From: an uncultured Acidilobus sp. JCHS
GTDB lineage: Archaea; Thermoproteota; Thermoprotei_A; Sulfolobales; Acidilobaceae
Length of the DNA: 64,000 nt
Direction: 5' to 3'
NCBI GenBank assembly: GCA_000495735.1
Contig: AYMD01000001.1
Location: 62,001 to 126,000 of the forward strand
Positions 3,647-62,493 of the stretch are shown piece by piece. Position numbers and translations under genes: made by a program. Below the pieces are notes generated by a model. That model was not told the DNA's origin and made no database searches. It was given only the letters and a program-made list of their open reading frames with translations. Each line of letters opens with the position of its first letter. Within the stretch, counting starts at the first letter, position 1.

Positions 3647-4207
3647 TTGTCCGTCAGCCTGAGCGAGGAGGTAATCAACAGGGTGTTGAAGGAGTGGGAT
3701 GAGAACCCGATCAGGAGGCCAAGGATAACCAAGGTCACCGTTAACATAGCCCTCGGGCAGGGCGGGGAGAAGCTGGCCAAGGTGCAGGCCCTGCTAGAGC
3801 AGCTGACGGGGCAGAGGCCTGTCATGAGGAAGGCCAAGAAGACCATAAGGGCCTTCGGAATTCACAAAGGGGATAACATAGCTGTGATGGCGACCTTAAG
3901 GAAGGAGAGGGCTATGGAATTCCTAAAGAGGGCCCTTGAGGCGGTAGGCCGCAGGGTAAAGGCCTCCAGCATAGATCGTCACGGTAACGTCTGCTTTGGC
4001 GTACCTGAGTACATTCTGTTGCCAGGCGCCAAGTACGACCCAGAGATAGGCATAGTGGGGATGGACGTGTGTTTGACCGTGGAAAGGCCCGGCTTCAGGG
4101 TCGAGAGGCGTAGGCGTGCCCGCTCAAGAATACCTTTAAGGCACAGGGTCCGCCCGGAGGAAACCATGGTGCTGCTCAACAAGGAGTTCGGGGTCACGAT
4201 AGTGTGA
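3647..4207 (+). CDS. rpl5: Ribosomal protein uL5
   Basis: Large-subunit protein that contacts 5S rRNA in the central protuberance. TTG start four bases after eS4. Family features are [19 protein letters not shown] near residues 25-43, the [13 protein letters not shown] loop, and the C-terminal [20 protein letters not shown]. The length of 186 residues is normal for archaea. Confidence 0.95.
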
Positions 4208-4217
4208 GGTGAGCGAT

Positions 4218-4382
4218 ATGGGTAAGATAAGGCCACCTAAGCCCAAGACTATGGGCCGCGGGGCCCAGAGGTGCCAGAGGTGCGGCACAAGGGACGCAGT
4301 CATACAGAAGTACGGGCTCTACCTCTGTCGCCAGTGCTTCAGGGAGATAGCGGCCGAGCTGGGGTTCACGAAGTACTCGTGA
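4218..4382 (+). CDS. rps14: Ribosomal protein uS14 (zinc-binding, 54 aa)
   Basis: Read directly from the sequence: an ATG at 4218 opens a 54-codon frame ending at TGA 4380-4382. The product begins [19 protein letters not shown] and has two CxxC pairs (CQRC and CRQC), the zinc-ribbon form of uS14 found in archaea. The ribosome binding site GAGGTGAG precedes it at 4207-4214. Its place between uL5 and uS8 is the conserved one. Confidence 0.93.
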
Positions 4383-52232: not shown

Positions 52233-53728
<1,496 letters not shown>

Positions 53729-53732
53729 CGCC

Positions 53733-53772
53733 GGCGGGCTCGACGCTGTCGCGTGAAAGCCCACGGGCCCCC
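53733..53772 (+). other. Pre-16S processing stem, right arm with BHB
   Basis: Right arm of the stem that begins at 52174, with bulge AAA at 53756-53758. See the left-arm entry. Confidence 0.85.
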
Positions 53773-53875
53773 ACCGCCGATGCAGTCCACAAGCCCCAGG
53801 GCTTGTGGGCGAAGGGCGCTAAGGGCCTCCTTAGGCCCTGATGAGCGCCGTCCGCCCGTGGGGCTGTGCCCAGAT

Positions 53876-53891
53876 CTGGGCCGGCCTCACC
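53876..53891 (+). other. Pre-23S processing stem, left arm
   Basis: CTGGGCCGGCCTCACC pairs perfectly with 57021-57036. Inside it, GG/CC, TGC/GCA and CCCCTGG (53909-53915)/CCAGGGG (56992-56998) continue the stem with unpaired bases between, including TTT at 57018-57020, consistent with a BHB-type cleavage site, although less regular than that of 16S. No tRNA gene is in the 16S-23S spacer; it holds only hairpins such as GGGCCT/AGGCCC near 53823-53838. Confidence 0.75.
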
Positions 53892-53916
53892 AGGGGCACC
53901 TGCTTAATCCCCTGGC

Positions 53917-56990
<3,074 letters not shown>

Positions 56991-57020
56991 CCCAGGGGCT
57001 AGGGGCTTAGGCAGACCTTT

Positions 57021-61967: not shown

Positions 61968-62063
61968 AGCTGCCCCCTCGCGTTTCTGTACTTGATGCAG
62001 ATCTTTATAACTTCTAGGCATCAGTCCGAGGCTTCAAGGCTTAAGGCCTTATAACTTGGCTGA

Positions 62064-62096
62064 ACCTTTTCATATTGATAGAAAACCTTTTATATT
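62064..62096 (+). promoter_or_regulatory. Tandem TATA-like promoter elements
   Basis: ACCTTTTCATATT and ACCTTTTATATT are repeated 21 bases apart. The second, TTTTATATT, predicts a start of transcription near 62117 on the plus strand, where no protein gene follows. These are among the most AT-rich promoter elements in the window. Confidence 0.5.
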
Positions 62097-62116
62097 AGTC
62101 TGTGACAGATCCCACT

Positions 62117-62315
62117 GATGACCCCTCACCTGATGGGGGCGCTGCCCCAAGGGCGAGGGCGATGAGGCCCCTCAGCCCCCTGTAGATGGGGGCCCCGTGC
62201 CGTTGGGCCCGACGGCCGCCCATGATACCCACAGGCGCCGCTGGGGCTCTGTGGGCGAGGTGGAAGCCCCTAGGCGCAACGGACAAACATGAGCTGATGA
62301 GGGCGAGCGCCTAGG
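62117..62315 (+). ncRNA. Candidate structured noncoding RNA (or decayed mobile element end)
   Basis: GC-rich segment without a convincing reading frame, in a 497-bp gap (61968-62464) between coding genes. Hairpins visible: GGGGC/GCCCC (about 62135-62148), CCCCC/GGGGG with a 7-nt loop (62176-62192), CCCACAG/CTGTGGG (62228-62234 and 62249-62255), and CCTAGGCGC/GCGCCTAGG (62269-62277 and 62307-62315). The upstream tandem TATA elements suggest it is transcribed. A remnant of an IS605-type tnpB tail with its RNA is an alternative that I could not confirm. Confidence 0.35.
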
Positions 62316-62493
62316 GACAAACGGCTCCGTAGGGGCCCTGCTGGGAGGCTTCGTACTTCAGGGCAGCGGGCTCCTAGGAATGACGCCGCTCAAGGCCACC
62401 ATGTGGACCTTCGCGGCCTTCGCAGTAATATCATCAATAATGCTTGTCATGTTGCCAAGAGGGCCTAAGGCACAACTAGCACGTCAGCCTTAG
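62293..62493 (+). pseudogene. 3' remnant of a membrane transporter gene (MFS-like)
   Basis: One frame, open from a TGA at 62290-62292 to TAG 62491-62493, reads TNGSVGALLGGFVLQGSG and then WTFAAFAVISSIMLVMLP before a short polar tail. This looks like the last two membrane helices of an MFS-type transporter. No start codon context or upstream transporter sequence exists; the 5' part is replaced by the structured segment. Its last 29 bases overlap the convergent uspA gene. Confidence 0.5.

Follow-up and report, generated by a model that had tools for sequence, protein, structure and literature searches.

A probable miniature IS607-family element with a TnpB ωRNA scaffold and its own promoter in an uncultured Acidilobus

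In a 64,000-nucleotide stretch of DNA from an uncultured Acidilobus sp. JCHS (the window), positions 62058-62324 most probably form a non-autonomous, MITE-like element of the IS607 family, which carries the ωRNA (reRNA) scaffold of an IS607-type TnpB together with a promoter. At 267 bases, the element lacks both tnpA and tnpB. The parts of this reading differ in strength: the RNA is almost certainly a TnpB ωRNA, the element is very likely a deletion derivative of IS607, the RNA is probably transcribed from its own promoter, to judge from the sequence, and whether a TnpB would use it in trans we consider evenly balanced. The anatomy, homology and conservation of the element are established at the sequence level.

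Results

The element is short, has no intact ORF and shares both ends with a complete element, as MITE-like elements do. The gene pair of an autonomous IS607 element, a TnpA serine recombinase and TnpB, is missing from 62058-62324 and present in L061, a locus of the same genome, and L217, from Thermocladium modestius. A preliminary description of this DNA had delimited a smaller segment (62064-62315) with two TATA-like elements, several hairpins with stems of 7-9 bp and no convincing ORF. All three observations held: there are AT-rich elements at 62070-62080 and 62088-62095, the hairpins at 62122-62159, 62190-62210, 62228-62255 and 62268-62316 are real, and the longest ORF over the region is 63 aa or less. 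A 42-aa ORF on the + strand (62186-62314) is the frameshifted remnant of a TnpB C-terminus. The features are as follows, in window coordinates and with the basis for each in brackets; solo copies are those not linked to tnpB.

62058-62059, + strand: GG dinucleotide at the left junction, IS607-type crossover site (sequence; GG/C start in solo copies of several families and in the complete T. modestius element)
62058-62097, + strand: left end (LE) with two AT-rich elements (alignment to L217; common to the solo copies of the own genome)
62070-62080: AT-rich element TCATATTGATA
62088-62095, + strand: archaeal TATA box TTTTATAT, the better of the two AT-rich elements
62122-62159, + strand: ωRNA 5' hairpin, CCCCUCACC-UGAUGGGGGC..GCCCC-AAGGGCGAGGG (UGAUGGG.GC hairpin in solo and tnpB-linked copies)
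62180-62324, + strand: ωRNA scaffold core with the 3' end ...GGGACAAACGG, including the right end of the element (model R1, 133 bits; covariation)
62190-62210, + strand: helix 1 hairpin, 62190-62195 with 62205-62210 (covariation)
62216-62263, + strand: helix 2, 62216-62220 with 62259-62263, enclosing helix 3 (covariation)
62228-62255, + strand: helix 3 hairpin, CCCACAG...CTGTGGG, 7 bp plus inner pairs (covariation)
62266-62318, + strand: helix 4, long terminal stem, 62268-62277 with 62307-62316 (covariation)
62268-62316: 10-bp stem of helix 4, CCCTAGGCGC/GCGCCTAGGG
62323-62324, + strand: GG dinucleotide at the right junction (homology to the congeners' uninterrupted MFS gene restarts here)
62325-62344, + strand: predicted guide CTCCGTAGGGGCCCTGCTGG, from the flanking MFS gene, length inferred (variable sequence after the nearly invariant ACAAACGG)
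62323-62493, + strand: MFS transporter, C-terminal 56 codons, with the 5' part (~1.1 kb) missing (intact MFS_1 gene at the equivalent place in the congener G003)

At the level of the own genome (1.48 Mb), BLAST of 62040-62330 retrieved 16 copies and the covariance model 19 matches, several of them fragments; six copies are close sisters of the window element. In six copies, tnpB lies directly upstream and the core overlaps the last 131 bases of this 434-aa gene, two of the six being identical sequences at contig ends that may represent one locus. The Cas12f1-like TNB domain (PF07282) ends about 20-60 nt before the copy in the tnpB-linked loci. Upstream of tnpB, L061:2835-3482 encodes an IS607 transposase (NF033518, 227 bits for a cut-off of 110), and intact tnpA and tnpB are found elsewhere in the genome. 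The own-genome TnpB passes the cut-off of TIGR01766, narrowly misses that of NF040570 (97 of 100 bits), and retains three RuvC-type acidic motifs (D187, E276 and the D361 region, judged by motif); phmmer of this protein against PDB sequences gave no match at 1e-3.

A search of the own genome for the Y1 transposase of IS200/IS605 elements found none, and the relatives carry an IS607 transposase, so an IS605 or PATE identity was rejected. Of the earlier proposal of a decayed IS605/TnpB end with its guide RNA, the TnpB-element end and the guide RNA stand in substance. The IS605 part is replaced by an IS607-type element, with serine recombinase, GG ends, NF033518 partners and no Y1 transposase. 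Decay of a single element is not the whole description either: the miniature form recurs, has a left end and a promoter of its own, and conserves its RNA folds.

Two further loci of the own genome were observed. At L062:3384-4801, a tnpB copy contains a single in-frame TAG and no tnpA was seen with it; a small antitoxin-like ORF lies upstream, as does a stretch that weakly resembles the solo left end. The intact IS607 copy at L061:4790-5471 directly precedes a transporter-like ORF, which it may interrupt.

For the left end, an alignment of the first 41 bases (GGCTGAACC-TTTTCATATTGATAGAAAACCTTTTATATT) with the corresponding end of the complete T. modestius element scored 23.5, against 0.5 +/- 2.7 for shuffled sequences (0 of 2000 as high). 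In that element (L217), the same TATA box lies directly upstream of tnpA (IS607 transposase, 236 bits), whose predicted start codon would give a leaderless mRNA, and tnpB and then the ωRNA follow (4106-4254, 115 bits). The right end of the window element is common to L061 and L217. The solo elements of the own genome, like those of Metallosphaera yellowstonensis (L218-L221), pass at about the tnpA start codon straight from the left end to the ωRNA 5' hairpin, and thus the tnpA promoter becomes the ωRNA promoter. An internal deletion would have joined the left end and the former tnpA promoter to the TnpB ωRNA scaffold and the right end.

Of 48 solo copies, 32 have a TATA-like 8-mer at 25-75 nt before the 5' hairpin motif, and of 30 tnpB-linked copies one does, with a background rate further upstream of 0.23 and 0.04, respectively; part of the contrast comes from linked copies lying in coding sequence. 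In the window, the predicted transcription start would be at about 62115-62119. The solo copies display several left-end types, each starting GG/C and containing a TATA-like box; the own genome's autonomous elements carry one of these types. This diversity points to guide-only elements having arisen independently more than once. These autonomous elements, L060 and L061, were discarded as the direct source of the left end at 62058-62097, since their left-end type differs.

For the RNA, the strand folds only moderately better than its dinucleotide-shuffled versions (z = -2.08; 4 of 200 did as well), and folding alone would not prove an RNA because a moderate z is expected for G+C-rich sequence. 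The decisive evidence is covariation across relatives, not folding energy. The preliminary description had proposed searching relatives for covariation, and this search retrieved a conserved fold: across 32 copies belonging to several families (plain MAFFT alignment), 90.2% of the cells of the four helices are paired and 22 of 34 pairs present double changes. The covariation score was 0.379 versus 0.152 +/- 0.009 for shuffled alignments (0 of 500 shuffles reached it), and slid partners gave at most 0.104. For solo copies alone (n = 30), it was 0.382 versus 0.143 +/- 0.011, a signal that is in part inherited, because tnpB-linked copies are both the ancestors of solo copies and their partners in sequence exchange, and some origins are probably recent.

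Helices 1 and 2 are paired in 98.4 and 98.1% of cells, each with double changes in 3 pairs; double changes are present in 8 of 11 pairs of helix 3 and 8 of 12 of helix 4. The outer end of helix 4 is weaker in the window copy than in the consensus, and its purine-rich internal loop may resemble a kink-turn. In the 5' hairpin, the stem sequence differs between copies and the UGAUGGG.GC motif is common to solo and tnpB-linked ones. Core columns 7-11 and 40-44 could pair in competition with helix 2; they hardly vary and are a possible pseudoknot. Single-sequence folding also paired CCGU (core 1-4) with ACGG at the core end, which we rejected, since the first columns show no covariation. Some solo and tnpB-linked copies (L067, L157, L060, and L057) share the helix-3 hairpin CCCACGCCGATAGCCCGTGGGGCGTGGG exactly or almost exactly although the rest of their sequence differs, which suggests gene conversion between copies.

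Searching the Rfam covariance models, as had also been proposed, matched no family at the gathering cut-off or at E <= 1, RAGATH-18 included. The initial idea of a new structured RNA is thus right in that Rfam has no matching family, and wrong in that the RNA is not an orphan, being a TnpB ωRNA scaffold. An H/ACA or C/D box guide RNA, suggested by UGAUGA motifs, was dropped given the tnpB linkage.

The segment had been described as lying where a transporter gene lost its 5' part, and the congener G003 bears this out, with an intact MFS transporter gene (PF07690) in the equivalent neighbourhood. Homology to G003 ends where the neighbouring sugar-nucleotidyltransferase gene begins (62019) and picks up again at 62323, precisely with the right-hand GG; the guide, from 62325 onward, therefore consists of MFS gene sequence. 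Around the guide match, G003 reads ...ACGGTGGGAGG/CTCCGTGGGCGCC, and TGGGAGG immediately precedes the target. This motif is G-rich, as expected of IS607 TAMs by analogy with the characterised 5'-AGGAG and GAGGG of IS607 TnpBs (PMC11061315). The copies end in an almost invariant GGGACAAACGG followed by unrelated flanks, as an IS607 ωRNA scaffold should end; in ISXfa1, crossover occurs at GG dinucleotides and the right-flanking G is part of the scaffold (PMC10711439).

The congener comparison fixes the right junction only. The window retains 56 transporter codons, ~1.1 kb upstream of them is lost, and the left flank has no MFS match; therefore, this is not a clean insertion, and the left flank is not the original partner of the right one. 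The loss could have come from a later deletion or from two element copies recombining. For the other solo copies, intergenic sequence in the congeners is too diverged for exact empty sites. Within the own genome, the guide is matched perfectly by its own flank alone, and accordingly no chromosomal target is evident at present; the search of this genome for other targets gave one 3-mismatch site without a G-rich motif, taken as chance.

Solo ωRNAs were also observed at equivalent places in different genomes. L071:4366-4509 (own genome) and L161:1575-1719 (congener G002) occupy an equivalent intergenic place and carry unrelated guides, which would reflect either independent insertions or fast guide change. 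At L066:4964-5107 and L009:1502-1645, a solo ωRNA lies at an equivalent place in two species with similar guides (few differences over ~29 bases), making it a candidate for maintained function.

Across the phylum, model R1 matched 72 of 300 genomes drawn. Among the 96 loci examined, a sample biased to high-scoring matches and copy-rich genomes, 59 were solo, 36 were linked to tnpB or a piece of it, and one had too little flank to be classed. Solo ωRNA copies are common in the phylum and outnumber enzyme-bearing copies among those examined. One genome (G053) harbors about 18 copies of one type, and another (G201) has a solo match of the model. Phage and plasmid collections gave no DNA match to the element, and a scan of viral contigs with the left-end pattern found none.

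Discussion

Altogether, we propose that the TATA box would start a transcript just before the 5' hairpin, which would read through the scaffold into the flank, the first ~20 flanking bases serving as the guide. Insertion would turn flanking sequence into a guide. TnpB from an intact element in the own genome may bind the solo ωRNA in trans and cut uninserted target copies at the G-rich TAM, helping the element to persist or be copied back, and the IS607 transposase (TnpA) would mobilise the element in trans. On a broader scale, and at slightly below an even chance in our estimate, Thermoproteota may hold a genome-wide pool of promoter-driven solo ωRNAs, each addressed to its own insertion site and all relying in trans on a single resident TnpB or a small number of them. 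These would be guide-only selfish elements parasitising the RNA-guided homing of autonomous IS607 copies.

The strongest competing explanation is that of a passive relic, or an ordinary MITE, moved by the IS607 transposase, in which the ωRNA region is kept only as the right end and the RNA is not made or not used. We regard it as quite possible, if somewhat short of even. It fits with a non-autonomous element in an already truncated host gene, with several fragmentary copies in the own genome, and with the lack of a present guide target there. However, solo copies keep covariation and the full scaffold even though the tnpB frame is broken in many of them, the window copy included. Moreover, most solo copies whose 5' hairpin can be recognised have a correctly placed TATA box, and several different left-end types all come with a promoter and a complete ωRNA.

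A domesticated regulatory guide RNA, through which a TnpB-like protein would control or silence a host gene in the manner of TldR systems, is very unlikely. Some solo copies lie just upstream of genes, and the L066/L009 copy is kept in two species with a similar guide, but the guides are plain flanking sequence, orthologous places in two species can have unrelated guides, and the own-genome TnpB keeps its nuclease motifs. A small protein gene, conserved as code for a TnpB C-terminal peptide, is more improbable still: the tnpB frame is open over most of the overlap in 31 of 52 solo copies, but it is broken in the window copy and in most own-genus solo copies, where the RNA pairs are kept.

Compared with known systems, the components of the proposed ωRNA element are known separately: IS607 TnpB ωRNAs, ends-only IS605 elements and archaeal IS607-linked MITEs. 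Guide-bearing non-autonomous IS605 elements have been reported. For IscB, ωRNAs are encoded in trans in Ktedonobacter, with many solo guide RNAs and few nuclease genes; that system is bacterial and relies on IscB, not TnpB.

The closest likeness is to IS607 TnpB reRNAs or ωRNAs (ISXfa1, PMC10711439; ISFba1 with RAGATH-18, PMC11061315), which share a structured scaffold at the 3' end of tnpB, a right end with an invariant G, a flank-derived guide and a G-rich motif before the target. Unlike them, the window element has neither tnpB nor tnpA and carries its own promoter directly before the RNA, whose sequence and fold are unmatched by the RAGATH-18 model of Rfam. In bacteria, 36% of RAGATH-18 RNAs have no TnpB neighbour (PMC11061315), a possible parallel to the solo ωRNAs. 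PATEs, or ends-only IS605 elements (e.g., in Halanaerobium, PMC7290912), likewise combine a left end, the last part of tnpB and a complete right end without transposase. In contrast, the present elements have IS607-type serine-recombinase ends instead of Y1 palindromes, many copies and a conserved promoter, and an RNA function is considered for them. In Staphylothermus marinus, a 2009 study described 14 copies of IS607-linked MITEs of ~260 nt, which it took for plain MITEs and in which it recognised no guide RNA (PMC2678158); by their description, they are alike in size, archaeal phylum and IS607 association. The literature that we searched gave no account of promoter-driven solo IS607 ωRNA elements across Thermoproteota.

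TnpB is ancestral to CRISPR-Cas12, and how multi-guide systems evolved from single-guide transposon nucleases is an open question. Where solo guide genes carry promoters of their own and outnumber nuclease genes, this would be a natural intermediate, with one enzyme and many separately encoded guides. The IS607-linked miniature elements of hyperthermophilic archaea could be re-read as possible guide RNA genes. Besides, this adds a new ωRNA family missing from Rfam, and the thermophilic TnpBs are possible tools.

Elsewhere in the window, the 16S and 23S rRNA genes form one operon (52233-57001) and tRNAs are found at other positions (Rfam matches), as is ordinary for an archaeon.
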